Source: an uncultured Roseobacter sp.
Lineage (GTDB): Bacteria; Pseudomonadota; Alphaproteobacteria; Rhodobacterales; Rhodobacteraceae
Length of the DNA stretch: 64,000 nucleotides
Assembly (NCBI RefSeq): GCF_947495275.1
Contig: NZ_CANLYL010000004.1
Span: forward strand, 124,001-188,000
Reading direction: 5' to 3'
Both the position numbers and the translations under genes were made by a program. Positions 20,023-59,152 of this stretch are shown piece after piece; the stretch's first letter is position 1; each line of letters starts with the position of its first letter. The notes under the pieces were generated by a model. It was not told where the DNA came from and made no database searches. It saw nothing but the letters and a program-made list of their open reading frames with translations.

Positions 20023-21633
20023 ATGACCCCAACACCCGTTGCGACCTTGAGCACTTTGCCTGACCGTGATCCACAATATGCAATTATAGGCGAAGTCGAT
20101 CTGGTGGTCGTGCGGTTTGACGAGGAGGTGTCGGTTTTCTACGGACGATGTCTGCACCGAGGGGCGCTGATGGCGGACGGCCACGTGCGCGGCAAGGATC
20201 TGATCTGCGGGGTGCATGATTGGGACTACCGGCTCGACAGCGGTGTGTCGTCTTATGCCAACGACGAGGCATTGCCAAAGTTCAAATCCTGGATCGAAGA
20301 TGGCGAGGTTATGGTTGATGCGGATGAGATCAACCAATGGGGGTATGACAATCCGCAACCCTATAACCGGGACGCCTATCTTGGTCTTTATGCCGACCCC
20401 AGCCATGGCGATACTGGTGAGCCCTATACCGGGTTGATCCAGCAATATGCGCGGGACGGTCTCAGCAAGACCGGCCATCACGGTGTGGTGGACGCCATGG
20501 GTGTGTTGCGCGCGGAACTGCCTGATTGGGATGACATCCAGCTTCTGACAGCGCAATTGGCCAAGGCACCGCTGCTGGATGATGAACCGGTGGGCACCGA
20601 TGTGGTGATCGGGCCCAACGCACAAAAACCGCTACGCCTGAAAATCCCTCTCTTTGTCTCGGACATGTCTTTCGGGGCCTTGTCGGAACCGGCCAAGGTG
20701 GCGCTGGCGATGGGTGCTGAAATGGCCGGGACGGGCATCTGTTCCGGTGAGGGCGGCATGTTGCCCGAAGAGCAGGAAGCCAATTCGCGCTACTTCTACG
20801 AACTGGCCTCCGCGCGCTTCGGGTTCAGCTGGGACAAGCTGGACAAGGTGCAGGCGTTTCACTTCAAGGGCGGGCAGGGGGCCAAAACCGGCACCGGCGG
20901 CCATCTGCCGGGGGCCAAGGTCAAAGGCAAGATCGCCAAGGTGCGCAGCCTCGACGAAGGGCAGGACGCCATTTCGCCGCCGCGCTTTCCCGATTGGACC
21001 GACCCCGCACAGATCAAGGATTTTGCCGATGAGGTGCGCGACCGGACGGGGGGTATTCCCATAGGCTACAAGCTCAGCGCGCAACATATCGAAAAGGACA
21101 TAGACGCCGCCCTTCAGGTGGGTGTCGATTACATCATCCTTGACGGGCGCGGGGGCGGCACCGGGGCGGCACCGGTGATTTTCCGCGACAATATCTCCGT
21201 CCCGACGATCCCGGCGCTGGCCCGCGCGCGGGCGCATCTCGACAGGCTGGAGCGCAACGACGTCTCGCTGGTCATCACCGGGGGCTTGCGCAAACCGGCG
21301 GATTTCATCAAGGCGATGGCATTGGGGGCGGATGCGATTGCACTCTCCAATTCTGCGATGCAGGCTATTGGCTGTCTGGCCATGCGCGCGTGCCATACCA
21401 ATAACTGCCCGGTGGGGATCGCGACGCAGAAACCGCATCTGGTCAGCCGGATCATCGTGGATAAATCAGCGCGGCAACTGGCCAATTTCTTTGACGCTTC
21501 GGTGGAACTGATGCAAGTGATGGCGCGCGCCTGCGGGCACACCCATCTGTCGCAATTCACCCACAGCGATCTGACCACCTGGAAGAAGGACATGGCCGAA
21601 ATCTCCGGGGTTGCCTTTGGAGGTGCCGCATGA
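20023..21633 (+). CDS. Rieske domain fused to FMN-binding glutamate-synthase-like domain
   Basis: A 536-residue cytoplasmic protein. Residues 15-95 are a Rieske-type [2Fe-2S] domain with Cys43/His45 and Cys62/His65 (CLH, 16 residues, CGVH). The rest is a glutamate-synthase central/FMN domain: VSDMSFGALSEPAKVALAMG, then FHFKGGQGAKTGTGGHLPG, the FMN loop DGRGGGTGAAP, and a [3Fe-4S] motif of Cys451/Cys457/Cys462 (CHTNNCPVGIATQ). No glutaminase domain is present, so it is not an ordinary GltB. Related stand-alone domains occur in methylamine metabolism (N-methylglutamate synthase). First gene of a tight six-gene operon. The Rieske fusion suggests electrons enter or leave through a ferredoxin-like path; the substrate is unknown. 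Confidence 0.88.
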   Translation: MTPTPVATLSTLPDRDPQYAIIGEVDLVVVRFDEEVSVFYGRCLHRGALMADGHVRGKDLICGVHDWDYRLDSGVSSYANDEALPKFKSWIEDGEVMVDADEINQWGYDNPQPYNRDAYLGLYADPSHGDTGEPYTGLIQQYARDGLSKTGHHGVVDAMGVLRAELPDWDDIQLLTAQLAKAPLLDDEPVGTDVVIGPNAQKPLRLKIPLFVSDMSFGALSEPAKVALAMGAEMAGTGICSGEGGMLPEEQEANSRYFYELASARFGFSWDKLDKVQAFHFKGGQGAKTGTGGHLPGAKVKGKIAKVRSLDEGQDAISPPRFPDWTDPAQIKDFADEVRDRTGGIPIGYKLSAQHIEKDIDAALQVGVDYIILDGRGGGTGAAPVIFRDNISVPTIPALARARAHLDRLERNDVSLVITGGLRKPADFIKAMALGADAIALSNSAMQAIGCLAMRACHTNNCPVGIATQKPHLVSRIIVDKSARQLANFFDASVELMQVMARACGHTHLSQFTHSDLTTWKKDMAEISGVAFGGAA

Positions 21634-22007
21634 ACCAGGCGGAAATCATCCTGATGGGTCTGCGCATTTGGGGGACCATCGGGGCGCTGGTCGCGGCGGT
21701 CTTTCTGACCTTCGGCATGGACCGCATCGACGAGGATGCACAGGACGCCTATATTTTCCGGCCGCTGTTGATCCCCGGCATTCTGGCCATCTGGCCGCTG
21801 GTGCTCTGGCGCTGGTATCTCTACGAGACCGGCCGCGAGGTCTGGGCGCGCCGCTATGACCCGCCGCGCAAGGCGCATTTTGCCGTCGGGTGGATATTGC
21901 CCATCGGCATCTGCGCGATCATCGTCACCGGGCTCAGCATCCGCCAGCAATGGCCTGCAGAGATCGCCCCCGAACGCCTGTCGGCCCCGACGGAGGTCAG
22001 CCAATGA
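21630..22007 (+). CDS. Small membrane protein of the Rieske/FMN/ThDP operon
   Basis: A 125-residue protein with three predicted membrane helices (near residues 9-29, 46-62 and 84-102) and a hydrophilic C terminus. It overlaps both neighbours by ATGA. I recognise no family. A cytoplasmic basic loop (YETGREVWARRYDPPRKAHF) lies between helices 2 and 3. It is probably an accessory or anchoring subunit of the membrane part encoded next. Confidence 0.75.
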   Translation: MNQAEIILMGLRIWGTIGALVAAVFLTFGMDRIDEDAQDAYIFRPLLIPGILAIWPLVLWRWYLYETGREVWARRYDPPRKAHFAVGWILPIGICAIIVTGLSIRQQWPAEIAPERLSAPTEVSQ

Positions 22008-23065
22008 GCGTCAAATACACCCCCGTTCAATGGAACAACAACAAATACATCTACGACGCGGTGATGCTGCTGGGCGTGGCGCTGTTTCTCTATGTTTTCC
22101 TCTATGCCTCGCCGGGCATTCTAAGCCATGAGCGCCCGATCAACCCGCAGGTTCACAACGCGCGCGCCTTTGGGGCCTGTGCTTTCACCATGCTCACAGT
22201 GATCCTGTGCATCGGCCCGCTTGCGCGGCTGGACAAACGGTTTTTGCCGCTGCTCTACAACCGTCGCCATTTCGGGGTGATGACGGTCTTTGTGGCGATC
22301 ACCCATGCGGGGTATATTCTGGACTGGTATTTCGCCTTTTCGATGTCGGATAAATACGAAGCCCTGCTTTTTGCCAACACCAGCTATGGCCAGCTTTCGG
22401 GTTTCCCCTTTGAAGTTTTTGGCATTTTTGCGCTGATCGTGCTGATCGTGCTGGCGGCCACAAGTCATGATTTCTGGATGAAATTCCTCAGCCCGCCGGT
22501 GTGGAAGCGCATTCATTACCTCATCTATCCGGCCTATCTGTCGGTTGTCGCCCATGTGTCGCTGGGGATATTGCAGGACCAGCAGAACCACGTCTTTACG
22601 GTGATTTTCATTGGTGGGGCGGCGGCGGTCGGCATTCTGCACTTGCTGGCAGCGCTGCATGAACGCCGGGCAGACCAGATGCTGGCGGCTGATGCCGGGG
22701 CCTGGGTGCCGGTTTGCGAAGTCACCGAGATGACCGAAGGCTTCGCCAAGATCAAGCTTTTGGCAAATGGCGAGCGTGTGGCGGTCTATCTCAACGACGG
22801 GACCCTCAGCGCCATCTCCAACGCCTGTGCGCATCAAAACGGCCCGCTCGGCGAAGGCAAAATTATTGATTGTCTGGTGACCTGCCCATGGCACGGGTTT
22901 CAATACGAGGTGTCCTCTGGCCGGTCGCCTGCGCCTTTCACCGAGATGGTGCCGACCTACAACCTCAAACTCGAAGGAACCAAGGTCTTGGTTGATCCTA
23001 AGGCAAATCCGCCCGGCACCTATGTCGAACCGCTGGTGGCCCCCAAGCAGGAGGCGGTGGCATGA
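22004..23065 (+). CDS. Ferric-reductase-like membrane protein fused to a Rieske domain
   Basis: A 353-residue protein. Residues 15-220 hold about six membrane helices of the ferric-reductase-like (b-type haem) fold, with candidate haem-ligand histidines at 101, 171 and 184 in HAGYILDWYF and HYLIYPAYLSVVAHVSLG. Residues 235-330 are a Rieske domain with Cys275/His277 and Cys294/His297 (CAH, 16 residues, CPWH). A Rieske domain takes the place of the FAD/NAD module found in ferric and NADPH oxidases. It would link the membrane haems to soluble electron carriers. The start is the ATG overlapping the previous stop; upstream sequence in this frame is a shadow. Confidence 0.85.
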   Translation: MSVKYTPVQWNNNKYIYDAVMLLGVALFLYVFLYASPGILSHERPINPQVHNARAFGACAFTMLTVILCIGPLARLDKRFLPLLYNRRHFGVMTVFVAITHAGYILDWYFAFSMSDKYEALLFANTSYGQLSGFPFEVFGIFALIVLIVLAATSHDFWMKFLSPPVWKRIHYLIYPAYLSVVAHVSLGILQDQQNHVFTVIFIGGAAAVGILHLLAALHERRADQMLAADAGAWVPVCEVTEMTEGFAKIKLLANGERVAVYLNDGTLSAISNACAHQNGPLGEGKIIDCLVTCPWHGFQYEVSSGRSPAPFTEMVPTYNLKLEGTKVLVDPKANPPGTYVEPLVAPKQEAVA

Positions 23066-23823
23066 GTGACAAACACGCACCGTTTTTTGTGGGATACCTG
23101 CCTGTGCCGGGTCCGTTGCGCGGTATCTTGCTGGCTGTCTGCGTGTTGTTCATCTCCGGGCTGGCGGGTTTCGGTCTGGCGCTTGGGGTGGCGCAGGACG
23201 ATCCGGGCGATGGCGCGTTCCGGTTCGACTACGGTCGTCAGACGGTAACCGGCGTTGTGGAATTGACGCCCTATCCGCTGCTGCGCGTGACCGAAGGCAA
23301 CGACCGGATCAAAGCAGGCCATACGCTGATGCTGGCTGGGCAGGGCAAGAATAGCGTCGAAAACCGCGCGATTCCGCTGGAGGGGAAACTGGCCAAGGTG
23401 TCCGGTGTCATTCTGCAACGCGGTGATCTCGACATGTTGCAGTTGCGCGGCGGGCGCAACGGGCTGGGCCCGGTGGAGGGTGCGGCCCCTGAACTGGTGA
23501 CCGAACCTCTGGGCCGCTGGAAGCTGGCAGGAGAGATTTGCGATGGCAAATGCCTTGCGGGCGCCATGCGTCCCGGGCGTGGGCTGGCGCATAAAGCCTG
23601 CGCCAACCTCTGCCTGATTGGCGGCGTGCCGCCGGTTTTTGTCTCGACGCAGCCGGTGGAAGGGTCGGAGTTTCTGCTGATCACTGGCCCTGACGGCGGC
23701 CCGCTGCCCCAAGGCGCCTATGACTATGTGGCGCAGTTTGTCTCTCTGGAGGGGGACGTGGAGCGGCGCGGCGATTTGCTGGTGCTGCGCCTGGACCCCG
23801 AGACGCTGGAGGTACTGGAATAA
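23062..23823 (+). CDS. Membrane-anchored protein with a conserved-looking Cys/His motif
   Basis: A 253-residue protein with one N-terminal membrane helix (near residues 20-42) and a large soluble domain, probably periplasmic. The striking part is CDGKCLAGAMRPGRG, then HKACANLCLIGGVPPVF, which gives four cysteines and a histidine in C-x3-C and HK-x-C-x3-C arrangement around residues 155-185. Such a set could bind a metal or an iron-sulfur cluster or form redox disulfides. The motif is not CxxCH, so it is not a c-type cytochrome. It overlaps both neighbours, so it belongs to the same complex or pathway. Function unknown. Confidence 0.75.
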   Translation: MSDKHAPFFVGYLPVPGPLRGILLAVCVLFISGLAGFGLALGVAQDDPGDGAFRFDYGRQTVTGVVELTPYPLLRVTEGNDRIKAGHTLMLAGQGKNSVENRAIPLEGKLAKVSGVILQRGDLDMLQLRGGRNGLGPVEGAAPELVTEPLGRWKLAGEICDGKCLAGAMRPGRGLAHKACANLCLIGGVPPVFVSTQPVEGSEFLLITGPDGGPLPQGAYDYVAQFVSLEGDVERRGDLLVLRLDPETLEVLE

Positions 23824-24107
23824 TGCGCCGTGCTTTCATGATTGTCATCGTCGCACTCCTCGCCCTGATCATGTTTTACCTGTCGCGTTTCTGGATTCTG
23901 TCGCTTTGGTCGCGGGACGGGTTGTTCGGGCAACAGGCACTGCGGCCACAGGGGGATCTGCTCAGCGTCTGGCTGCGCGGCACCGACGCGGCTCCGTTTG
24001 AGCTGCTGATCTGGGCGCTGGGGTGTTTCGCCGTGCTGACCCTTGCCCAGAAACTCTATGACTATTTCACGACGCCAACCGATGCAGGAGAACCCAATGA
24101 CGGATGA
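23823..24107 (+). CDS. Small two-helix membrane protein
   Basis: A 94-residue protein with two predicted membrane helices (residues 5-27 and 58-78) joined by a short polar segment. Its ATG shares one base with the previous TAA, and its last eleven bases overlap the next start. No family recognised. It is probably a structural subunit of the membrane redox complex of this operon. Confidence 0.7.
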   Translation: MRRAFMIVIVALLALIMFYLSRFWILSLWSRDGLFGQQALRPQGDLLSVWLRGTDAAPFELLIWALGCFAVLTLAQKLYDYFTTPTDAGEPNDG

Positions 24108-26076
24108 AACCCTTGACTGGATCAGTGTTGGCCATATCGACGATCTCCCCGAAGGGCGGGTAAAAACCGTCACAGCGCGCACAACATCGGTCTGTCTGGT
24201 GCATTTCGACGGCCAATGGGCAGCGATGAACAACCATTGCCCGCACCAGCGCGGCCCTCTGGGCGAAGGCTCCATCGAAAAAGGCATTGACGACAAATGC
24301 TGGATTCGCTGCCCCTGGCATGGGTGGGATTTTGACCCTTTGACCGGCAAACCGCCGGGAGGACATGAAGACACCGGTCAGCAGATGTATCCGGTGGACA
24401 TCCGCGATGGCGAGATTTTTGTGGGCATCGTGCCAGAGCCGCCGCACGAACGCACAGTCACGGATGTGATGGTGGAAACCCTGTCGAACTGGGGTGTGCA
24501 ATCGGTTTTCGGCATGGTGGGGCATTCCAATCTGGGTCTGTCCGATGCGATCCGGCTGGCGGTGGGTGACGGGCGGATGAAATATTTCGGCATCCGTCAC
24601 GAAGGGGCGGCGGCCTTTGCCGCATCCGCCTATGGCAAGCTGACCGGAACGCCTGCGGCCTGTCTGACCATTGCAGGACCGGGGGCCACCAACCTGCTCA
24701 CCGGTCTGTGGGATGCCAAGGTGGACCGCGCGCCGGTGCTGGCGCTGACCGGTCAGGTGCAGACCCAGGTAATGGGGCCGGGGGCGTTTCAGGACATTGA
24801 TCTTTTGTCCGCGTTTCAGGCTGTGACCAGTTTCTCGCAGCCGGTTCTGGGCAGCTCCAACCACGCGGAACTGGCCGCCCTTGCCTGCAAGACCGCAATT
24901 GTTGAACAGAATGTGGCCCATCTGATTTTCCCTGACGATGTGCAAACCAACCCCTCTGACCAACCGGCGAGCGCTCCGGAGGGCCGTGTGACAGCCGCGC
25001 CGGTGATCCCGGCCCAAAGTGAGATCGACAAGGCCGCCGCGAAAATCAAAAGTGCGAAACGTCCGATCATTGTTGTGGGTCACGGGGCCTATCCGGTGCG
25101 CGATGAGATCGCGGCGCTGGCCGAAAACCTTGGCACACCCGTGCTGACGACCTTCAAGGCAAAGGGGCTTCTGCCCGATGATCACAAATGTGCGGGCGGG
25201 GTGCTGGGGCGGTCCGGGACGCCGATTGCAAGCTGGTTCATGAACGAAGCGGACCTGATCATCGCTCTGGGCACCAGCTTCTCCAACCACACGGGTATCG
25301 AGCGCAGCAAGGAGATCATTCAGGTCGATCACGAACGCATGCAGCTGGGCAAGTTCCACCCCGTCGCCCTGCCGATCTGGGGCGATGTGGGCGCGTTTTG
25401 TGACGCCATCGGGCGCACCGATTGTCATAATTCTCAGGCGGATGATCAGATCACCGAACTGGCCGACCGCTGGGACATCTGGCGGCGCGAAAAACAGCAG
25501 CGCCTGCAAGAGGATCTGGGCCGTGGTATCCATTCCTTTGCCATCTTCGAAACCCTCGGGCGGCTGGTGCCTGACAACACGATCTTTGCGGTGGATGTGG
25601 GCAACAACACCTATTCCTTTGGCCGCTATCTGGAGACCAAGGGGAGCCAGCGGGTGCTGATGTCGGGCTATCTCGGCTCCATCGGGTTCGGGCTACCTGC
25701 TGCGATGGGGGCTTGGGCCGCCACACAGGACAAAGAGGGTCTCAAAGGCTGCAAGGTTGTGTCGATCTCCGGCGATGGTGGTTTTGGCCAATACCCGATG
25801 GAATTCACCACGGCGGTCAAATACGGCATGGATATCACCCATATCCTTCTCCATAACGGCGAGCTCGGCAAAATCTCCAAGGAACAGCGCTCCGGTGAAT
25901 GGCCGGTCTGGGAGACCGATCTGCAAAATCCCGGCTTTGCCGCTTTTGCCCGGCTTTGCGGCGGCCACGGCGTCAAAGTGACCGAGGCGGGCGATATCGA
26001 GGCCGCCATCCGCGATGCGCTGGATCACAAGGGCCCGGCACTTGTGGAAATCATGACAGATGCGGAATTGGTCTGA
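24097..26076 (+). CDS. Rieske domain fused to ThDP-dependent (pyruvate-oxidase/acetolactate-synthase-like) enzyme
   Basis: A 659-residue fusion. Residues 8-112 are a Rieske domain with Cys48/His50 and Cys72/His75 (CPH, 21 residues, CPWH). Residues 120-659 are a complete ThDP enzyme of the PoxB/IlvB superfamily. The cofactor-activating Glu169 sits in GIRHEGAAAFAASAYGK, TIAGPGATNLLTGLWDA follows, and the GDG motif at 559 has its Asn at 587 (GDG-x25-N). The ATG at 24097 has AGGAG upstream; earlier ATGs in frame are less likely. A [2Fe-2S] domain on a 2-oxoacid-cleaving ThDP enzyme suggests that the hydroxyalkyl-ThDP intermediate is oxidised by one-electron transfer. The substrate is not evident. 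Confidence 0.87.
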   Translation: MTDETLDWISVGHIDDLPEGRVKTVTARTTSVCLVHFDGQWAAMNNHCPHQRGPLGEGSIEKGIDDKCWIRCPWHGWDFDPLTGKPPGGHEDTGQQMYPVDIRDGEIFVGIVPEPPHERTVTDVMVETLSNWGVQSVFGMVGHSNLGLSDAIRLAVGDGRMKYFGIRHEGAAAFAASAYGKLTGTPAACLTIAGPGATNLLTGLWDAKVDRAPVLALTGQVQTQVMGPGAFQDIDLLSAFQAVTSFSQPVLGSSNHAELAALACKTAIVEQNVAHLIFPDDVQTNPSDQPASAPEGRVTAAPVIPAQSEIDKAAAKIKSAKRPIIVVGHGAYPVRDEIAALAENLGTPVLTTFKAKGLLPDDHKCAGGVLGRSGTPIASWFMNEADLIIALGTSFSNHTGIERSKEIIQVDHERMQLGKFHPVALPIWGDVGAFCDAIGRTDCHNSQADDQITELADRWDIWRREKQQRLQEDLGRGIHSFAIFETLGRLVPDNTIFAVDVGNNTYSFGRYLETKGSQRVLMSGYLGSIGFGLPAAMGAWAATQDKEGLKGCKVVSISGDGGFGQYPMEFTTAVKYGMDITHILLHNGELGKISKEQRSGEWPVWETDLQNPGFAAFARLCGGHGVKVTEAGDIEAAIRDALDHKGPALVEIMTDAELV

Positions 26077-26156: not shown

Positions 26157-26861
26157 ATGAATGATATCTACGAAGGGCTGGTTTCCGCGTTCTGGCTGGT
26201 TGTCACGTTTGATGCAGACCTGATGGAGATCAGTCTGCGCTCGCTGCAGGTCAGCCTGACGGCGCTGGTCATTGCCTCGGCCATTGCCTTGCCGCTGGGG
26301 ACGTTTCTGGCGATCCGGCGGTTCCGCTACAGACGGCTGGTGATTTCGCTCTTGAATGCGCTGATGGGCCTGCCCCCGGTGGTCGTGGGGCTGATCGTCT
26401 ATATTCTGCTGTCACGCTCGGGACCTTTTGGCGTGTTCGGTCTGCTTTTTACGCCGACGGCCATGATCATTGCGCAGGTGGTGATCATCACGCCGCTGAT
26501 TGCCTCGATCACCCATCAGGCGATGCGGGAGCTTTGGGCGGAATATCACGACCTGCTGATTTCGCTCAACACCAGTGCCTGGCAACGGATAAAGACCCTC
26601 ATCTGGGACGGGCGTCGCAACCTGCTGACTGCCTCGCTGGCAGGCTTTGGTCGGGCCATTGGTGAGGTCGGTGCGATCATGATCGTGGGCGGCAATATCG
26701 ACAACGCCACCCGCGTGCTGACCACCGCGATTGCGCTGGAGACCGGCAAGGGTGATTTTGCGCTGGCACTGGCGCTGGGGTTCGTATTGATCGCCTTGGC
26801 CATTGGCATCAACATTTGCATCCACTGGCTCTCGCGCACGGAACGGGAGGGCCGCTGGTGA
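26157..26861 (+). CDS. tupB: Tungstate ABC transporter permease TupB
   Basis: A 234-residue permease with five or six helices and the ABC coupling-helix segment ISLNTSAWQRIKTLIWDGRR, followed by GFGRAIGEVGAIMIVGGNI, which is typical of tungstate/molybdate permeases. It lies 80 bases after the Rieske-ThDP gene on the same strand and overlaps the ATPase gene by GTGA. The TupA-type binding protein downstream makes tungstate the likely cargo. Confidence 0.9.
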   Translation: MNDIYEGLVSAFWLVVTFDADLMEISLRSLQVSLTALVIASAIALPLGTFLAIRRFRYRRLVISLLNALMGLPPVVVGLIVYILLSRSGPFGVFGLLFTPTAMIIAQVVIITPLIASITHQAMRELWAEYHDLLISLNTSAWQRIKTLIWDGRRNLLTASLAGFGRAIGEVGAIMIVGGNIDNATRVLTTAIALETGKGDFALALALGFVLIALAIGINICIHWLSRTEREGRW

Positions 26862-27571
26862 GCACCATCCTGCCCCTGACCCTGACCGATGTGGCCGTGC
26901 GGAGGCGTGGCAAGCGCCTGCTGGGGCCGGTCAATCTGACGCTGGGTGAGGCCGGTCTGACCATGATCATCGGCCCGAACGGCAGCGGCAAGACGACGCT
27001 TTTGCGGGTGATGCACGGGGTGGAGCGTCTCAGCAAGGGTCATGTTGAATGGTCCGTCACCGAAGACGCGGCGCGCCATCGGCAGGCCTATGTTTTCCAA
27101 ACACCGATCATGCTGCGCCGGTCGGTTGCGGATAATCTGCGGTATCCGTTGCACTTGCTGGGCCTGCCTAAAGCTGAAGTGGAAACCCGTGTGGGCCGCT
27201 GGATCGCGCGGATCGGGTTGGAAGAACGCACCGGCCTTCAGGCCACGCGCCTCTCCGGTGGCGAAAAACAGAAACTGGCGATCGCGCGCGCTCTGATCCG
27301 CAAACCGGACGTGCTGTTTCTGGATGAACCCTGCGCCAATCTCGATGGGGCCTCCACCCGTGAAATCGAAACCCTGCTGCAAAACGCGCTCGCCGAAAAA
27401 ACACGCATTATCATGACCACACATGATCTGGGTCAAGCCAGACGCCTTGCAGATAGTGCACTCTTCATGTTGCATGGCGTGGTGCATGAGAAAGGTTCGG
27501 CGGAGGATTTTTTCAACGCACCAAAGACAGACGAGCTTCAGGCTTTTTTCAGAGGAGATATCATCGCATGA
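26858..27571 (+). CDS. tupC: Tungstate ABC transporter ATPase TupC
   Basis: A 237-residue ABC ATPase with Walker A GPNGSGKTT, signature LSGGEKQKLAIARAL, Walker B VLFLDEPCANLD and switch His in TTHD. The start is a GTG overlapping the tupB stop; the longer frame upstream belongs to tupB. The chain ends soon after the ATPase core and has no molybdate-binding (TOBE) extension, unlike ModC. Its stop overlaps the tupA start. Confidence 0.9.
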   Translation: MSTILPLTLTDVAVRRRGKRLLGPVNLTLGEAGLTMIIGPNGSGKTTLLRVMHGVERLSKGHVEWSVTEDAARHRQAYVFQTPIMLRRSVADNLRYPLHLLGLPKAEVETRVGRWIARIGLEERTGLQATRLSGGEKQKLAIARALIRKPDVLFLDEPCANLDGASTREIETLLQNALAEKTRIIMTTHDLGQARRLADSALFMLHGVVHEKGSAEDFFNAPKTDELQAFFRGDIIA

Positions 27572-28374
27572 TCGCACGGGTTTTTGCCCTCGTGAGCACC
27601 GTTTTTCTGGGCACCGCAACATTGGCGGATGAAATCCGGCTGGCGGTAACAACCTCCTTTGAAAATTCCGGTCTCGCGGATGTCCTGTTGCCTGCGATCA
27701 AGGAAGATATTGATCTGGATGTGCAGCTGCTGGTTGTCGGCACCGGGCAAGCGCTGCGTTTGGGCCGGGCGGGTGATGTTGACGCAATCCTGGTGCATTC
27801 GCGCGCCGCAGAAGAGGCATTTGTGGCAGAGAAGCATGGCACCTACCGGCGCGAGATCATGTACAATGATTTCGTGCTCATCGGTCCCAAGGATGACCCT
27901 GCGGGGGTTGGTAAGGCCCGGTCGGTAGCCGAGGCGCTAAAGCGCGTCGGCGTGACAAAACCCGCCTTTGTCAGCCGTGGCGATGACAGCGGAACACACA
28001 AGAAGGAAATCGCCCTTTGGCGGGCCGCAGATTTCGACCCCGCGACATTTGCCGCGTGGTACCGCGAAGTGGGCGCAGGCATGGGCGCGAGCCTGAACAC
28101 AGCCGCTGGCCTTGACGCCTATATTCTGGCGGACCGTGCAAGCTGGCTGAATTTTGGTAACAAGGCTAATCTGACGCTGCTTTATGCCGGTGATGCAGCG
28201 CTTTTCAACCAATACGCGTTTTTGGCGGTGAACCCGGAAAAGCACCCGCATGTGCAAAACGATCTGGCCGTCAAATTAGAGGCGTGGCTGACCAGCCCCC
28301 GCGCCGCAGAGCTTATCAACGGCTACACCATCAACGGCGAGACGCTCTTTACCTTCAACGCCAAACCGGAATGA
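27568..28374 (+). CDS. tupA: Tungstate-binding periplasmic protein TupA
   Basis: A 268-residue binding protein with a Sec signal peptide (cleavage near LADE, about residue 20). The mature N terminus RLAVTTSFENSG carries the TTTS-like oxyanion motif, and SRGDDSGTHKKE is the second ligand-binding stretch typical of TupA/WtpA-like proteins. It should give high-affinity tungstate uptake for the W- or Mo-dependent formate dehydrogenase encoded 8 kb downstream. The gene is convergent with the DUF6505 gene, with only two bases between. Confidence 0.9.
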   Translation: MIARVFALVSTVFLGTATLADEIRLAVTTSFENSGLADVLLPAIKEDIDLDVQLLVVGTGQALRLGRAGDVDAILVHSRAAEEAFVAEKHGTYRREIMYNDFVLIGPKDDPAGVGKARSVAEALKRVGVTKPAFVSRGDDSGTHKKEIALWRAADFDPATFAAWYREVGAGMGASLNTAAGLDAYILADRASWLNFGNKANLTLLYAGDAALFNQYAFLAVNPEKHPHVQNDLAVKLEAWLTSPRAAELINGYTINGETLFTFNAKPE

Positions 28375-34530: not shown

Positions 34531-35117
34531 GCACACAGGGCACTTTCTGGGCGCGCCGACGCGCCGCCGTTCAGGCCGAAGCAGAAGCGGAGGCCCGCGC
34601 CGAAATAGCAGCGGAGCAGGAAGCGGCGTTCGCTGAAAAGGACGATGCAGAGGTGCTCGAAGAGCTTGGCCTACCAGCGCCGGAGACGCTTGCGGCGGGA
34701 GATGATTTTGCCGCCTTCATGGCGCGTGATGTGCCCAAACACCTGCAAAACAGGGCGTTGCGCTCGTTGTGGCGCAGCAATCCTGTATTGGCCTGTGTGG
34801 ATGGGCTGAACGAATATGATGATGACTACCGCGCCGCCATGCTGGCCATGGAGCCGATAAAGACCGCGTATCAGGTGGGCAAGGGCATGATGTCCCATCT
34901 TGAAGAGGTGGCGCGTCAGGAAGAAGCCGCCAAGCAAGTCGCAGAAGTGGAAGCAGAAGGGCCGTGTGAGCCGGAGGAAGAGATCGAGACGCCTGAAGCG
35001 GTTTCCGCTGCCGAAGAGGTCACGTCGGAGCCCGCCCCCTTGCCATCGGTTGAAACAGAGGTATCCGACCCCGCGCCGCGCCGCATGCGCTTCAGATTCG
35101 AGGAGGCTGCCGTATGA
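34527..35117 (+). CDS. DUF3306 family protein, formate dehydrogenase accessory
   Basis: A 196-residue protein. The N terminus, FWARRRAAVQ and an acidic/alanine-rich helix, leads to the conserved core DVPKHLQNRALRSLWRSNPV and DGLNEYDDDY. The C-terminal third is low-complexity and Glu/Ala/Pro-rich, ending in a basic RRMRFRFEE tail. It is translationally coupled to both the DUF3305 and TorD genes. It is probably a chaperone or scaffold for dehydrogenase assembly; its biochemistry is unknown. Confidence 0.85.
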   Translation: MSTQGTFWARRRAAVQAEAEAEARAEIAAEQEAAFAEKDDAEVLEELGLPAPETLAAGDDFAAFMARDVPKHLQNRALRSLWRSNPVLACVDGLNEYDDDYRAAMLAMEPIKTAYQVGKGMMSHLEEVARQEEAAKQVAEVEAEGPCEPEEEIETPEAVSAAEEVTSEPAPLPSVETEVSDPAPRRMRFRFEEAAV

Positions 35118-35722
35118 GTGCCGCCGCCGATATGATGGATGTCGCCCCGGAAGACCGTCTGCGGGCGGATTTGTATAATTTCCTGGGGCTGGCGCTGGCG
35201 CGTCCCGCGGATCAGATTTTGCTTGATCAGATGTCGGAACTTTCAGGGGATGACAGTGATTTGGGGCAGGCGGTTGCGGGTCTTGCGCGCGTCGCCAGGG
35301 CCAGCAAGCTCAAGGCGGTCGAGCGCGAATTCAATGCGCTTTTCATTGGTCTCGGGCGCGGGGAGCTATTGCCCTACGCCAGTTATTACCTGACCGGTTT
35401 CCTGAACGAAAAACCGCTGGCGCGGCTGCGCAGCGACATGGCGGCGCATCAGATTACCCGCGCGGAAAATGTCTTCGAGCCCGAGGACAGCATGGCATCG
35501 CTGATGGAAATCATGGGCGGCCTGATCGTGGGCCGTTTTGGCCAGCCTGCGTCGCTGGAAGCGCAGCGGATGTTTTTCAACAATCACATCGCACCCTGGG
35601 CCACGCATTTCTATTCGGATCTGGAGGCCGCGAAAACATCCGTCCTGTACGGATCCGTCGGGGCCGTTGGGCGTGAATTCATGGTGATCGAGAAAGAAGC
35701 ATTCAGAATGACGGCAGTTTGA
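35114..35722 (+). CDS. TorD/DmsD-family molybdoenzyme chaperone
   Basis: A 202-residue all-helical TorD-like protein, with the family stretch EREFNALFIGLGRGELLPYASYYLTG and later FFNNHIAPWATHFYSDLEAA. Such chaperones bind the Tat signal peptide of the catalytic subunit and hold it until the Mo/W cofactor is inserted. Its place just upstream of the Tat-dependent dehydrogenase subunits fits this role. Confidence 0.88.
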   Translation: MSAAADMMDVAPEDRLRADLYNFLGLALARPADQILLDQMSELSGDDSDLGQAVAGLARVARASKLKAVEREFNALFIGLGRGELLPYASYYLTGFLNEKPLARLRSDMAAHQITRAENVFEPEDSMASLMEIMGGLIVGRFGQPASLEAQRMFFNNHIAPWATHFYSDLEAAKTSVLYGSVGAVGREFMVIEKEAFRMTAV

Positions 35723-35776
35723 TCTGCCACAAGGGGCGGGACGCCGCTCAGAGTAAGACGAAAGGGAGGAAGACAC

Positions 35777-35968
35777 ATGGCAACGAAATCGGAAGGCGGC
35801 ACAAACCGCCGGGATTTCCTGAAACTCGCGGGCACGGCTGCCCCGGCAGCGGCGGTCGCCGTGGCCGCAGGGTCGGGATCGGCTGAGGCCTCGCCGGTCG
35901 ATCCGACCTCGGACAAGATGCAGGACACCGCACATACGCGCGCGTATCTGGACAGCACACGGTTCTGA
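35777..35968 (+). CDS. Small twin-arginine protein of formate dehydrogenase regions
   Basis: A 63-residue peptide with a Tat signal (NRRDFLKLAGTAAPAAAVAV) and only a short mature tail ending in TRAYLDSTRF. GGGAGG precedes the ATG. It matches the 'formate dehydrogenase region TAT target' family found between torD and the alpha subunit. It may be a small structural subunit or help export the complex. Confidence 0.87.
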   Translation: MATKSEGGTNRRDFLKLAGTAAPAAAVAVAAGSGSAEASPVDPTSDKMQDTAHTRAYLDSTRF

Positions 35969-36058
35969 GACTTCCGGGCCCGTCGGATGACGCGCCCTGA
36001 CCGTCTTTGAACCCCCAAAACACCTAGCCACCTGATCGGGGCAGCAAGGGAGGAAAAC

Positions 36059-38956
36059 ATGTTAAGAAAAAAGACCAATAGGGTCACACAACGCGCCGGA
36101 CGGACGAACATCCTGACGGAAGTGGCGGAAAAACCAGTGGATCGCCGTGCGTTTCTACGCGGATCGGGCCTTGCGATTGGCGGGTTGGCGGCGATTTCCG
36201 CAACCGGCGGATCGGTCACGCAAGCCTCGGCGCAGTCGGCGGTCGATGGCGCGGTTCAGACGATCAAATCGGTTTGCACACACTGTTCGGTCGGTTGCAC
36301 GGTCATTGCAGAGGTCGCCAATGGCGTCTGGACGGGGCAGGAGCCCGGCTGGGACAGCCCGTTCAATCTGGGCGCGCATTGTGCCAAGGGGGCGGCTGTG
36401 CGCGAACACGCCCATGGCGAACGGCGTCTCAAGTACCCGATGAAGAAAGAGAACGGCGAGTGGGTGCGCATCTCTTGGGAGCAGGCGATCAACGAGATCG
36501 GCGACGGCATGAACAAAATCCGCGAAGAAAGCGGACCGGATTCCGTCTACTGGCTCGGCTCGGCCAAACACAATAACGAACAGGCCTATCTCTTCCGCAA
36601 GTTCGCCGCCTATTGGGGCACGAACAACGTTGATCACCAGGCGCGGATTTGCCACTCGACCACGGTGGCCGGTGTGGCCAACACATGGGGCTACGGCGCC
36701 ATGACCAACAGCTACAACGACATCCACAATTCCAAGGCGATTTTCCTGATTGGCGGCAACCCTGCCGAAGCGCACCCGGTTTCCCTGCTGCATATCCTGC
36801 GCGCCAAGGAACAGAACAACGCGCCGATGATCGTTTGCGACCCGCGCTTTACGCGCACAGCGGCGCATGCGGATGAATATGTGCGCTTCCGTCCCGGTAC
36901 GGACGTTGCATTGGTCTGGGGTATCCTGTGGCATATCTTCGACAACGAGTGGGAGGACAAGGAGTTCATCCGCACCCGTGTCTGGGGCATGGACCAGATC
37001 AAGGAAGAAGTGGCCCGCTGGACGCCTGAAGAGGTTGAGCGCGTCACCGGCACACCCGGCAGTCAGCTCAAACGCGTGGCCCGGACGCTGGCCAACAACC
37101 GCCCCGGCACGGTGATCTGGTGCATGGGCGGCACGCAGCACACCAACGGCAATAACAATACGCGCGCGTATTGCGTGTTGCAGTTGGCCCTAGGCAACAT
37201 GGGCACGTCGGGTGGCGGCACCAATATTTTCCGCGGTCACGACAATGTTCAGGGGGCCACCGACCTCGGCGTTCTGGCCAATACATTGCCGGGGTACTAC
37301 GGCCTCAAGCCCGGATCATGGGCGCATTGGGCGCGTGTTTGGGAAGAAGACCTGGACTGGCTCAAGGGCCGTTTCGCGGTCATGGAAGGGGCCGGAAAAG
37401 ACGGCGCCGACCGGATGATGATGAACGAGACCGGCATCCCGGTGTCGCGCTGGATCGATGGTGTTCTGGAGGATGCAGAAAACATCGACCAGCCCGACAA
37501 TACCCGCGCCATGGTTCTCTGGGGCCATGCGCCAAACTCGCAGACCCGTCAGAAAGAAATGAAGACGGCGATGGAGAAACTGGACCTGATGGTCGTGGTT
37601 GACCCCTATCCGACGGTTTCCGCCGTGTTGCAGGACCGTCAGGATGGTGTGTATCTGCTGCCCGCCTGTACGCAGTTTGAGACACGCGGCTCGGTCACGG
37701 CCTCCAACCGGTCGTTGCAATGGCGGGACAAGGTTGTCGATCCGATCTTTGAATCTTTGCCGGATCACACGATCATCTCGATGTTTGCCAAGAAGTTCGG
37801 CTTCCACGACAAGCTTTTCCGCAACATCGCGATGGATGGGGAGGAGCCCAACGTCGAGGATATCACCCGCGAGTTCAATCGCGGCATGTGGACAATCGGC
37901 TATACCGGCCAGTCGCCCGAGCGCCTGAAAAAGCACATGGCGAACCAGCATACGTTCGACCGCACGACACTGCGGGCTGTGGGTGGACCGGCGGATGGCG
38001 ATTACTACGGTCTGCCATGGCCAAGCTGGGGCACGGCAGAAATGAACCACCCCGGCACACCGAACCTCTATGACATGAGCAAACCGGTGGCCGAAGGGGG
38101 GCTGACGTTCCGCGCCCGCTTTGGCGTCGAGCGTGATGGCGATAACCTGCTGGCCGAAGGGGTTGCATCGGTGGGTTCGGAAATTCAGGATGGTTATCCT
38201 GAGTTCACGATGCAGATGCTGATGGACCTTGGATGGGACGGCGATCTGACAGCGGATGAACGCGCTGCCATTGACGCGGTCGCCGGGCCCAAGACCAACT
38301 GGAAAACCGACCTGTCGGGCGGTATCCAGCGGGTTGCGATTGCCCATGGCTGTGCGCCTTTCGGCAATGCCAAGGCCCGCGCCGTGGTCTGGACCTTCCC
38401 GGATCCGGTGCCGGTGCACCGCGAACCGCTCTACACCAACCGTCGCGATCTGGTCGCCGATTATCCGACCTACGAGGACAAGAAGTTCTGGCGTCTGCCG
38501 ACCATGTACAAGTCGATCCAGGATCAGGATTTCTCTCAAGAGTATCCGATGATCCTGACCTCGGGTCGTCTGGTCGAATATGAGGGCGGCGGGGACGAAT
38601 CCCGCTCGAACCCATGGTTGGCGGAGCTTCAACAGGACATGTTTGTCGAAGTGAACACTCGCGATGCCAATAACCTTGGCATTCGCGATGGCGAACAGGT
38701 CTGGGTCGAAGGTCCCGAGGGCGGCAAGGTCAAAGTGATGGCCATGGTCACCGAGCGTGTTGCCGCCGGTGTGGCCTTCATGCCTTTCCACTTCGGCGGG
38801 CATCTCGAAGGGGTCGATCTGAGGGATAAATATCCCGAAGGGGCCGATCCTTACGTTCTGGGGGAGGCGTCGAACACGGCGCAGACCTATGGCTATGACA
38901 GCGTGACACAGATGCAAGAGACGAAATCGACGCTCTGCAAAATCTGGGCAGCATAA
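36059..38956 (+). CDS. Formate dehydrogenase catalytic (alpha) subunit, Mo/W-bis-MGD
   Basis: A 965-residue member of the DMSO reductase superfamily that oxidises formate to CO2, exported by the Tat pathway. The Tat motif is DRRAFLRGSG. An N-terminal [4Fe-4S] cluster is bound by Cys73, Cys76, Cys80 and Cys108. The active-site pair is Cys198-His199 in RICHSTTVAG, so cysteine replaces the selenocysteine of E. coli FdnG. The C terminus carries the dinucleotide-binding domain with LTSGRLVEYEGGGDESRSNP. The enzyme is therefore periplasmic, membrane-bound through the beta and gamma subunits, and non-seleno. The nearby tungstate transporter suggests W use. Confidence 0.93.
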   Translation: MLRKKTNRVTQRAGRTNILTEVAEKPVDRRAFLRGSGLAIGGLAAISATGGSVTQASAQSAVDGAVQTIKSVCTHCSVGCTVIAEVANGVWTGQEPGWDSPFNLGAHCAKGAAVREHAHGERRLKYPMKKENGEWVRISWEQAINEIGDGMNKIREESGPDSVYWLGSAKHNNEQAYLFRKFAAYWGTNNVDHQARICHSTTVAGVANTWGYGAMTNSYNDIHNSKAIFLIGGNPAEAHPVSLLHILRAKEQNNAPMIVCDPRFTRTAAHADEYVRFRPGTDVALVWGILWHIFDNEWEDKEFIRTRVWGMDQIKEEVARWTPEEVERVTGTPGSQLKRVARTLANNRPGTVIWCMGGTQHTNGNNNTRAYCVLQLALGNMGTSGGGTNIFRGHDNVQGATDLGVLANTLPGYYGLKPGSWAHWARVWEEDLDWLKGRFAVMEGAGKDGADRMMMNETGIPVSRWIDGVLEDAENIDQPDNTRAMVLWGHAPNSQTRQKEMKTAMEKLDLMVVVDPYPTVSAVLQDRQDGVYLLPACTQFETRGSVTASNRSLQWRDKVVDPIFESLPDHTIISMFAKKFGFHDKLFRNIAMDGEEPNVEDITREFNRGMWTIGYTGQSPERLKKHMANQHTFDRTTLRAVGGPADGDYYGLPWPSWGTAEMNHPGTPNLYDMSKPVAEGGLTFRARFGVERDGDNLLAEGVASVGSEIQDGYPEFTMQMLMDLGWDGDLTADERAAIDAVAGPKTNWKTDLSGGIQRVAIAHGCAPFGNAKARAVVWTFPDPVPVHREPLYTNRRDLVADYPTYEDKKFWRLPTMYKSIQDQDFSQEYPMILTSGRLVEYEGGGDESRSNPWLAELQQDMFVEVNTRDANNLGIRDGEQVWVEGPEGGKVKVMAMVTERVAAGVAFMPFHFGGHLEGVDLRDKYPEGADPYVLGEASNTAQTYGYDSVTQMQETKSTLCKIWAA

Positions 38957-38970
38957 GGGGAGTATGAAAA

Positions 38971-39567
38971 ATGGCCGCTAGAGCAAAATTTCTCGTCGAC
39001 GCTGAACGCTGCATCGAATGCAACGCCTGCGTTACAGCCTGCAAAAACGAACATGAAGTGCCATGGGGCATCAACCGCCGGAAGGTCGTCACCATCAATG
39101 ACGGCTCGCCGGGGGAACGGTCGATCTCCGTCGCCTGCATGCATTGTTCGGACGCGCCCTGTATGGCCGTCTGTCCGGTGGATTGCTTCTATCAGAACGA
39201 AGAAGGCGTCGTTCTGCATTCCAAGGACCTCTGCATCGGATGCGGGTACTGTTTCTACGCATGCCCCTTCGGCGCGCCGCAGTTCCCGCAGGCGGGCAAC
39301 TTCGGATCGCGTGGCAAGATGGACAAATGTACCTTCTGTGCCGGGGGTCCGGAAGAAAACAACTCCACCGCCGAGTTCGCCAAATACGGCCGCAACCGCA
39401 TCGCCGAAGGCAAGCTGCCGATCTGTGCGGAGATGTGCGCGACCAAGGCACTGCTGGCCGGTGACGGCGACGTCGTTTCCAGCATCTACCGCGAACGTGT
39501 GGTGGCGCGCGGGTTTGGGTCCGGTGCCTGGGGGTGGGGAACCGCCTATGACCAGAAAGGGGGCTAA
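38971..39567 (+). CDS. Formate dehydrogenase iron-sulfur (beta) subunit, FDH3 type
   Basis: A 198-residue ferredoxin-like protein with four [4Fe-4S] sites: CIECNACVTACKNEH, CMHCSDAPCMAVCP, CIGCGYCFYACPFGAP, and a split site CTFC with CAEMCATKAL. It carries electrons from the catalytic subunit to the cytochrome b. It has no C-terminal membrane helix, unlike FdnH, so anchoring depends on the gamma subunit. It follows the alpha gene by 14 bases. Confidence 0.92.
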   Translation: MAARAKFLVDAERCIECNACVTACKNEHEVPWGINRRKVVTINDGSPGERSISVACMHCSDAPCMAVCPVDCFYQNEEGVVLHSKDLCIGCGYCFYACPFGAPQFPQAGNFGSRGKMDKCTFCAGGPEENNSTAEFAKYGRNRIAEGKLPICAEMCATKALLAGDGDVVSSIYRERVVARGFGSGAWGWGTAYDQKGG

Positions 39568-39593
39568 CCGCCTCTGGTCACTTTGAAAAATAC

Positions 39594-39624
39594 CTCAGGG
39601 GCGGCTCAAACGGGCCGCCCTGAG
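39594..39624 (+). other. Intercistronic hairpin between fdh beta and gamma genes
   Basis: CTCAGGG-G-CGGC pairs with GCCG-CCCTGAG (one bulged G, eight-base loop) 27 bases after the beta stop. No T run follows, so it is more likely a processing or stability element than a full terminator. Confidence 0.5.
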
Positions 39625-39643
39625 TGTCTTAGCCAAACAGGAT

Positions 39644-40834
39644 ATGCCCATGCTTCGTCTTCTTTGTCTTTTGGTGGTCTCAGTGGTCCTGTCGATCCCC
39701 GTGCACGCACAGGAGGCAGAACAACCCGTCGATCGGAGCGCCACAGGCGGCGCGCAGACGCTTGAAGACATCATGAAGCGTCAGGAGGGGTTGAAGGTTG
39801 ACGACAGTTTCCGAAGTGATGTGACAGGCAGCCCGGAAAGCGCGGCTCCGATCAGCGGGCAATTGGGCACCTTGGGTGGCGCGTCCGATCCTGATCTGTG
39901 GCGTGCCTACCGCTACAATTCGGCGGCCATTACCACACAGGCGCGGGGACCTGCGGCCGATGTGCTGATCCAGGATGGCGGTATGTGGTGGCTGGAATTC
40001 CGTCAGGGGCCGCTGCTCAAATACGGTGGCTGGCTGCTCGGTGGTATGGTGATCCTGCTCGCTGTATTTTTTCTGATCCGCGGGCGCATCCGCATTGACG
40101 GTGAAAAGACCGGTCAGACCATTTTGCGATTCAATTCGGTGGAACGGTTTGCGCATTGGTTATTGGCCGGATCGTTCATCCTGCTGGGCATCACCGGGCT
40201 GATCACGCTGGCAGGACGCAAACTGCTGATCCCGGCCTTTGGGCATGAGGCTTTCGCGACGCTGGCGGTTGGATCAAAATGGATACATAACAATGTCTCC
40301 TGGGCCTTCATGCTGGCGCTGATCCTCGTCTTTGTCTTCTGGGTGATCCATAATCTGCCCGACCGGACGGACATCAACTGGATTCTCAAAGGCGGCGGCA
40401 TATTGGGCGGGGGGCATCCGCCGGCCAAGAAGTTCAATGCGGGTCAGAAGCTGATCTTCTGGTCGGTCATCCTGTTGGGCGGCTCCATTTCAGTCTCCGG
40501 TCTGTCACTTCTGTTTCCCTTTGAGTTGCCGATGTTTGCCATCACCTTTGAAAAGCTGAACGCGCTCGGCTTGCCGCAACTGCTTGGCTTGGGGGAATTG
40601 GCCACATCACTCGCCCCGCACGAAGAGATGCAATATGCCCAATTGTGGCACGCCATTGTGAGCTTTGTCCTGATGGCCATCATCATCGCGCATATCTACA
40701 TCGGCTCCGTGGGCATGGAAGGTGCCTATGGCGCGATGGGCAAAGGCGAGGTCGAACTGCAATGGGCGCGTGAACACCACAGCATCTGGACGGCGGAAGT
40801 CGAGAAAAAGAAATCGCAGGCGGGATCCACATGA
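39644..40834 (+). CDS. Formate dehydrogenase cytochrome b556 (gamma) subunit
   Basis: A 396-residue membrane protein. An N-terminal signal peptide (cleaved near VHAQE) and a periplasmic segment of about 100 residues precede the FdnI-like four-helix cytochrome b domain. Candidate haem histidines are in NSVERFAHWLLAGSF, SKWIHNNVSWAF and LWHAIVSFVLMAIIIAHIY. It passes electrons from formate to the quinone pool. A second ATG at 39650, with AGGA at better spacing, may be the true start. Its stop overlaps the next small gene. Confidence 0.9.
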   Translation: MPMLRLLCLLVVSVVLSIPVHAQEAEQPVDRSATGGAQTLEDIMKRQEGLKVDDSFRSDVTGSPESAAPISGQLGTLGGASDPDLWRAYRYNSAAITTQARGPAADVLIQDGGMWWLEFRQGPLLKYGGWLLGGMVILLAVFFLIRGRIRIDGEKTGQTILRFNSVERFAHWLLAGSFILLGITGLITLAGRKLLIPAFGHEAFATLAVGSKWIHNNVSWAFMLALILVFVFWVIHNLPDRTDINWILKGGGILGGGHPPAKKFNAGQKLIFWSVILLGGSISVSGLSLLFPFELPMFAITFEKLNALGLPQLLGLGELATSLAPHEEMQYAQLWHAIVSFVLMAIIIAHIYIGSVGMEGAYGAMGKGEVELQWAREHHSIWTAEVEKKKSQAGST

Positions 40835-58968: not shown

Positions 58969-59152
58969 GATCTAGCTGGTTTGTCGGTTGAGAACGACCG
59001 CATTCTCCTAAACTTGTCTTTTCATGGCACGTCTCTTCCCTTCTCAAGCCATGTTTTGGACACAGCCTTTCGACCATTTTTGCCACAGGCCCGCGTGCGT
59101 TTTCAAAGCGCGACAGGCGGGTAGTGATCACCAATGGACGATAGAAAACGCG

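Follow-up and report, generated by a model that had tools for sequence, protein, structure and literature searches.

A stretch of 64,000 nucleotides from an uncultured Roseobacter sp. (contig NZ_CANLYL010000004.1, positions 124,001 to 188,000 of the forward strand; hereafter the window) carries, at positions 20023 to 26076, six overlapping plus-strand genes that we call g1 to g6, three of which encode proteins with a fused Rieske [2Fe-2S] domain. We judge that these genes may encode an electron-transfer system in which g6 would act as a 2-oxoacid dehydrogenase, whose electrons would pass through Rieske domains to the membrane haem protein g3 and on to the periplasmic face, with g1 as an optional second spoke. 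We give this reading a probability of roughly 0.5. The gene layout, domains, ligand residues, two-module structure, co-occurrence and STEAP-like fold match of g3 are observed directly; the substrates, the flavin of g6, docking between Rieske domains, topology, outward direction and acceptor are inferred. The host genome is 5.08 Mb in size, and the window g6 is 93-94% identical to the g6 of five loci titled Roseobacter (L024-L028).

An earlier note on this DNA had described six genes overlapping by 1-11 bases and encoding three different Rieske fusions, and all of the open reading frames (ORFs) and overlaps are present as it claimed, with Pfam recognising the domains of the three fusions. The overlaps are four bases each at g1/g2, g2/g3 and g3/g4, one base at g4/g5 and 11 bases at g5/g6. 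The Rieske family (PF00355) scores over its cut-off in g1, g3 and g6.

The presumptive electron source, g6 (24097..26076, +), starts with the ATG at 24097 and encodes a Rieske domain (residues 7-85, numbering from 24100) followed by a pyruvate-oxidase-like thiamine diphosphate (ThDP) enzyme (residues 119-651). Its Pfam matches all exceed their cut-offs (Rieske, E value 4.6e-17; TPP_enzyme N, M and C, 3.9e-32, 1.4e-35 and 5e-32). In an alignment of 79 sequences, which like that of g3 leaves out members below a set length, the Rieske ligands C-x-H / C-x2-H are conserved to at least 97%, and the ThDP motifs RHEG and (G)DGGF are at or near invariance. Conservation is also at least 97% for KEQ after the ThDP site, which we take to be a motif of pyruvate oxidases. 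The top NCBIfam model is pyruvate oxidase PRK08611 (373.7 bits, below the cut-off of 742); the PoxB model scores 289.3 bits of a cut-off of 792, and acetolactate synthase models follow the pyruvate oxidases with 285.5 bits. PoxB is also the best match in a search of the Protein Data Bank (PDB), in an alignment that covers PoxB up to residue 528 of 572 and leaves only four residues of g6 beyond it. The protein is therefore like PoxB and pyruvate oxidase in its three TPP domains, the Glu of RHE, the GDG motif and its best scores, but it differs in its N-terminal Rieske domain, in scoring below the NCBIfam cut-offs and in having no counterpart of the PoxB C-terminal tail, which is membrane-binding.

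The candidate membrane hub, g3 (22004..23065, +), joins a ferric-reductase-type haem b domain (Pfam Ferric_reduct, 6.8e-13) to a C-terminal Rieske domain (5.6e-15). Residues R87, H101, H171 and H184 are kept in all 57 aligned sequences, window included, H89 and H155 are likewise invariant, and the Rieske ligands C-x-H / C-x2-H are present in at least 97%. Zhang 2013 (PMC3591440) defines a YedZ/STEAP signature, wherein Arg replaces the first haem His and three other His remain, and judging from its aligned residues g3 carries this signature. The same paper catalogues a Rieske extension of bacterial ferric reductase domain (FRD) proteins without giving it a function. Against the curated MsrQ model of NCBIfam, g3 scores 36.5 bits, below the cut-off of 130. 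An AlphaFold 2 (AF2) model with a mean predicted local distance difference test (pLDDT) score of 75.7 was searched with Foldseek. The membrane part matches STEAP2 and STEAP1 over 227-237 columns (E 1.5e-4 to 4.3e-4), with a template modelling (TM) score that is modest (0.35-0.59 by target) and a root-mean-square deviation of 5.5-7.5, and the Rieske part matches dioxygenase (CarAc-type) Rieske ferredoxins over about 100 columns. Signature and fold thus ally g3 with YedZ/MsrQ and STEAP, but it has a Rieske domain at its C terminus in place of a flavin/NAD(P)H part. Among the window genes annotated here none resembles MsrP, although no search aimed at MsrP was made.

A simple hydropathy scan gives g3 five helices at a strict threshold and six at a looser one. 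We favour six helices with both termini inside, an arrangement that would therefore place the Rieske domain in the cytoplasm. The same scan finds three helices in g2 (21630..22007, +), which opens the membrane module and adjoins g3 in relatives, and two in g5 (23823..24107, +), a small protein that closes the module and is supported by its ORF and an alignment. For g2 there is only a sub-threshold Pfam match (0.0076, 16.5 bits, cut-off 30.1), and neither g4 nor g5 is matched by any Pfam family at E 0.1.

The fourth gene, g4 (23062..23823, +), encodes an N-terminally anchored protein with one hydropathy helix and a weak second at the looser threshold. A Cys/His motif pointed out in the earlier note is borne out by alignment, as C160-x3-C164 and H177-x2-C180-x3-C184 are invariant in 25 of 25 sequences, window included. 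The AF2 model (pLDDT 83) has one anchor helix and two mainly beta halves, which probably form two domains resembling the oligonucleotide/oligosaccharide-binding (OB) fold. Foldseek returned nothing at E 0.001 or better for g4; its weak matches include many single-stranded-DNA-binding or other OB-type chains, and SilF at a probability of 0.94 but E 0.14. A sequence search of the PDB gave three defensin chains above E 1 and, at E 4.5e-4 and 3.6e-3 over 65 positions, two chains of a single entry, the sporulation protein 5wq0. Across the g4 family, Pfam yields DUF5818 at 0.031 in 2 of the 25 members and three other families in one member each. We suggest that g4 faces the periplasm, where it would bind a metal or take part in dithiol chemistry.

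The second putative enzyme, g1 (20023..21633, +; 536 residues), combines a Rieske domain (residues 4-77; Pfam 3.5e-11) with a flavin mononucleotide (FMN)/[3Fe-4S] glutamate-synthase-like core (residues 199-505; Glu_synthase, 3e-90). The cluster cysteines, Cys451-x5-Cys457-x4-Cys462, are conserved in 70 sequences. The window protein has the Rieske ligands C-x-H / C-x2-H, and because the 70 sequences were mostly chosen by this ligand pattern, ligand conservation is no independent test in that set; note that 10 relatives fall in neither class when sorted in this way, several of them shortened by our own gene calling. Although the core and the three cluster Cys are shared with glutamate synthase (GltS), g1 is too short to hold the amidotransferase, central and GXGXG parts, has an added Rieske domain, and in a PDB alignment shows the loops GEGGM and GTGGH where the solved structures have GEGGE and GEGGQ. 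Its NCBIfam score is 135 bits, below the glutamate synthase cut-off of 1047. Given that the host genome holds a separate GltS-like frame of 1511 residues, g1 is unlikely to be the main glutamate synthase of its host. The short length, the differing loops and this separate frame give no support to the proposal in the earlier note, by which g1 would act on a compound of amino or imino type linked to the g6 substrate.

Relatives of g1 occur with other domains in place of the Rieske domain. A CDGSH-Glu_synthase protein type is mentioned in an earlier publication (PMC5859297), and in 20 genomes of the host's family proteins of this kind share the core with g1 (65-71% identity, residues about 130-535) but carry a double CDGSH instead of Rieske in the members examined, namely single sequences and, by pattern, five more of the 20. 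Examples are L112:6680-8230 and L207:5686-7218 (Vibrio and Rhodobacterales), and a Monoglobus relative (L117:4749-6176) has a rubredoxin-like pair of CxxC motifs (Pfam 23.0 bits, below the cut-off of 26.5). Because the same core occurs with three different one-electron domains, the pattern suggests that the g1-type reaction needs single-electron exchange.

A phylogeny of the Rieske domains, proposed as a check in the earlier note, was built from the 29 sources having all three (window included, no outside references). The domains of g1, g3 and g6 each form their own split with support of 0.90-1.0, so a common origin inside the operon is not supported. Mean identity is 30% between the g3 and g6 domains and 17-19% between g1 and either. 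Two positions, which tune the potential in bc1 Rieske proteins, are occupied by Trp/Phe in 77 of 78 g6 sequences; at the second, Tyr is found in 54 of 57 g3 sequences and in all 62 readable g1 sequences of 68. Tyr at the second position raises the potential. Since it is present in g3 and not in g6, electron flow from g6 to g3 would be downhill by this rule, and the tuning residues are compatible with that direction.

Gene neighbourhoods were compared across 80 loci, the best of 296 g6 relatives from a scan of genome contigs. All six genes stand in window order in 19 of the 65 loci having at least 5 kb upstream, and eight loci have g2-g3-g4-g5-g6 without g1. Other loci have the pair g1-g6 and, within the flanks, no membrane module; a gene for an NhaP2-like antiporter may or may not accompany this pair. 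The antiporter gene is the immediate upstream neighbour of g1 in 31 of the 54 loci with enough flank. The genes g2-g3-g4 are downstream of g6 in nine loci (titled Roseibium, Labrenzia or Stappia) and upstream of g1 in three. Roseobacter alone displays three states: six genes (L024, L025 and the window), g1 missing (L026-L028) and the membrane module missing (L032, in whose genome, G685, no g4 was found). There are thus two modules, a soluble one of g1 and g6 and a membrane one of g2 to g5, which shuffle, separate and are lost singly. Because the full order is held in 19 of 65 loci only, and g1 or g4 is missing from some genomes with g6, a single fixed six-gene pathway is too simple a description and is rejected.

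Several loci also have two conserved proteins after g6 (clusters of 11 and 7; L073:11981-12856 and L073:12878-13579), neither with a Pfam or NCBIfam match. Antiporters are encoded near the Rieske enzymes on a haloarchaeal plasmid (L104:10985-12217), on a mycobacterial plasmid (L108:4271-5890) and in alphaproteobacteria (L032:7090-8340); their best NCBIfam models differ (Na+/H+ CPA1, CPA2/Kef-like and K+/H+ PRK05326), all below cut-off.

Co-occurrence was assessed in 295 genomes of 294 genera, drawn evenly from the host's family, by a hypergeometric test with no correction for kinship; the first look for g6 and g1 scored at most four candidates per genome. We sorted the 50 g1-matching genomes by hand according to match start: the match includes the Rieske part in 28, begins close to residue 130 in 20 and is partial in two (G220 and G249). 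Only the first 28 were counted as g1 (G098 and G157 are partial, and G184 is in two pieces). On this basis g6 is present in 16 genomes, Rieske-bearing g1 in 28 and g4 in 25. Joint presence is seen in 15 genomes for g6 and g1 (expected 1.5, p 1e-16), 14 for g6 and g4 (expected 1.4, p 2e-15) and 16 for g1 and g4 (expected 2.4). The genes g6 and g4 are neighbours in eight of their 14 shared genomes and apart in six, at distances of 1.17 and 0.79 Mb on one contig in G125 and G171 and on different contigs in G001, G029, G194 and G240. Linkage alone therefore does not explain their co-occurrence, and a functional link among g6, g1 and g4 is supported.

Of the 25 family genomes with g4, eight lack both g6 and a g1 with its Rieske part. 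The surrounding loci of seven of them keep the order g2-g3-g4 amid varying neighbours. A second set consists of 50 genomes with g6, of unstated completeness, corresponding to 50 of the 80 loci, at least six of which (G685, G690, G691, G693, G707 and G722) overlap the first set by coordinates. Whole-genome searches found g1 in 44 of them, one match (G725) being cut by a contig end, and g4 in 43. The six without g1 have g4 and the seven without g4 have g1, a pattern that may be due to chance.

Beyond the family, a sample of 398 Pseudomonadota genomes has g6 in five, the window's own included, four of which belong to its family. Relatives of g6 are found on four haloarchaeal plasmids (57-59% identity) and a Mycobacteroides plasmid (51%), and relatives of g1 (60-61%) on three haloarchaeal plasmids, within about 4 kb of g6 on two and about 17 kb off on the third.

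In the mechanism that we consider most plausible, g6 would oxidise a 2-oxoacid, with pyruvate as a first guess, at ThDP and probably with a flavin. Unlike PoxB, it would use no membrane docking and would hand the electrons to its own Rieske cluster, putatively of the low-potential type, which would dock with and reduce the Rieske domain of g3. By way of its STEAP/MsrQ-type haem b, g3 would then move electrons across the membrane, and either g4, with its OB-like domains and invariant Cys/His set, or a quinone would accept them on the periplasmic side. The small proteins g2 and g5 would serve as membrane partners, and g1, with flavin, [3Fe-4S] and its own Rieske cluster, as a second, optional enzyme in electron exchange with this hub. 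The redox system put forward in the earlier note is upheld as regards the three Rieske fusions, the pyruvate-oxidase-type ThDP enzyme, the membrane haem and the co-occurrence; its fixed pathway is not supported, as g1 and g4 were not found in 6 of 50 and 7 of 50 g6 genomes, respectively, and as g4 also occurs in family genomes that lack both g6 and Rieske-bearing g1.

Several points weigh against this mechanism. The middle-domain loops of g6 are strongly conserved in the family and differ from the FAD-binding loops of PoxB at what we take to be the PoxB positions. Every NCBIfam score seen for g1, g3 and g6 is below its cut-off, the fold matches of g4 are weak (best E 0.039), and the co-occurrence p-values are uncorrected for kinship. 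Given that g4 is missing from 2 of the 16 family genomes with g6 and from 7 of 50 in the second set, the membrane hub is not obligatory for g6. The haloarchaeal plasmids have relatives of g6 (four) and g1 (three) at 57-61%, and among plasmids g4 was found on five from Rhizobium only.

One rival, which we regard as unlikely though plausible from gene neighbourhoods, is a stress system against electrophiles, quinones or oxidants, wherein the relay would hold a pool in the periplasm or cytosol in its reduced state, with pH or K+ adjusted by antiporters encoded nearby. In L207 the CDGSH-type g1 has genes for pirin, a member of the GST family and a hemerythrin-domain protein beside it. Haloarchaeal versions have neighbours annotated as DsrE, TauE, pirin, cupin or merA, both Vibrio versions have Dps nearby, and one gene cluster, identified in one member as an extracytoplasmic function (ECF) sigma factor, recurs in 5 of the 80 loci. 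These neighbourhoods vary, however, and were read by eye without an enrichment test, and the window's own neighbours are a transporter that we would name Tct-type and one of tungstate type.

Reverse flow, in which g3 would draw electrons from the quinol pool or periplasm to feed the cytosolic Rieske domains, with g1 (and g6) as reductases, seems distinctly unlikely to us. The core of g1 does resemble glutamate synthase, a reductive enzyme, and MsrQ is termed quinone-binding in one report (PMC8238504). However, FRE and NOX enzymes send electrons from the cytosol to the outside, according to PMC3591440, and a ThDP pyruvate-oxidase core is a source of electrons rather than a sink.

A role in ion or osmotic balance, with g1 making or using glutamate as a K+ counter-ion together with a cation/proton antiporter, would account for the NhaP2-like gene so often upstream of g1 and for the other antiporters, which adjoin g6 in L104, one of the four haloarchaeal loci, and lie some 3 kb from it in the mycobacterial L108. 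We give it little credence, as the other three haloarchaeal loci have no antiporter among their annotated neighbours, the host has its separate GltS-like frame and the loops of g1 differ from those of glutamate synthase; the window genome has no NhaP2-like match at E 0.001, an empty answer that shows little without a positive control. Similarly improbable is a view of g6 as a ThDP lyase without redox chemistry, or as an enzyme of the acetolactate synthase kind, whose Rieske domain only senses redox state. The acetolactate synthase models score close behind pyruvate oxidase (285.5 versus 373.7 bits) and no NCBIfam cut-off was seen to be reached, but the operon has three Rieske fusions and co-occurs with a haem protein, which points to electron transfer, and the KEQ motif is conserved as in pyruvate oxidases.

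Fusions of FRD with Rieske and of CDGSH with Glu_synthase were known singly, as PMC3591440 and PMC5859297 record. The earlier note knew of no pathway combining Rieske domains with both an FMN-GltS core and a PoxB-like core, and the literature titles and abstract openings searched (partial lists, with most subscription papers outside their scope) contain no description of the gene set. This suggests a so far undescribed modular system related to FRD-type transmembrane electron transfer. A bolder formulation, which we advance only tentatively and hold to be doubtful, is that of a new transmembrane electron exporter, coupling ThDP-dependent 2-oxoacid oxidation via interchangeable Rieske domains to a haem of STEAP type and, in the periplasm, an OB-like acceptor with the Cys/His set, together with a GltS-like flavoenzyme family that has exchanged its one-electron plug (Rieske, double CDGSH or rubredoxin-like) while passing among aerobic bacteria, haloarchaea and clostridia. 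If the relay works as proposed, Rieske ferredoxin domains can supply electrons to haem proteins of the STEAP/MsrQ type, and they would serve as a common plug that joins unrelated enzymes to a single hub in the membrane, a role apart from the dioxygenases and bc complexes that are their usual settings. A function would also be at hand for strongly conserved genes on haloarchaeal and rhizobial plasmid records, where such genes are named 'thiamine pyrophosphate-binding protein', 'glutamate synthase-related protein', 'Rieske 2Fe-2S domain-containing protein' or 'hypothetical protein'.

Two Rhizobium plasmids carry a Rieske-domain gene and a g4 gene with small flanking ORFs (L114:6886-8956 and L115:6886-8956), near a short-chain dehydrogenase/reductase (SDR) gene and a ThDP gene. 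The g3 relative in L114 has FRD and Rieske domains, and the ThDP protein there is without an N-terminal extension. A CopD-family gene adjoins in L114 and is about 6 kb off in L115.

Within the window, the operon is flanked upstream of g1 by a three-gene transporter, which we take to be of TctCBA type, and downstream of g6 by a tungstate-type ATP-binding cassette (ABC) transporter (26157-28374). The permease of the latter exceeds the cut-off of NCBIfam ABC_perm1 (259.7 bits, cut-off 100) and is below that of TupB (172.7 of 320), and the binding protein is below that of TupA (184.7 of 400). Neither transporter is regarded as part of the system, as relatives of TctA, TctB, TctC, TupA and TupB appear only in L024-L028 among the 80 loci, within the flanks covered. 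A role in anti-phage defence is likewise rejected, as PADLOC gave g1 to g6 no match at E 0.01, and N-methylglutamate synthase was considered but not adopted as a counterpart. A further 7 kb or so downstream from the tungstate-type transporter lies an operon resembling that of a membrane formate dehydrogenase (35114-40834), with a Nitrate_red_del-type chaperone, a molybdopterin oxidoreductase, a 4Fe-4S protein and a cytochrome b561-type protein. We consider this Mo/W operon (35.1-40.8 kb) to explain better why the transporter is present. Further along, positions 59024-60859 encode a protein with a Ser/Thr protein kinase domain.

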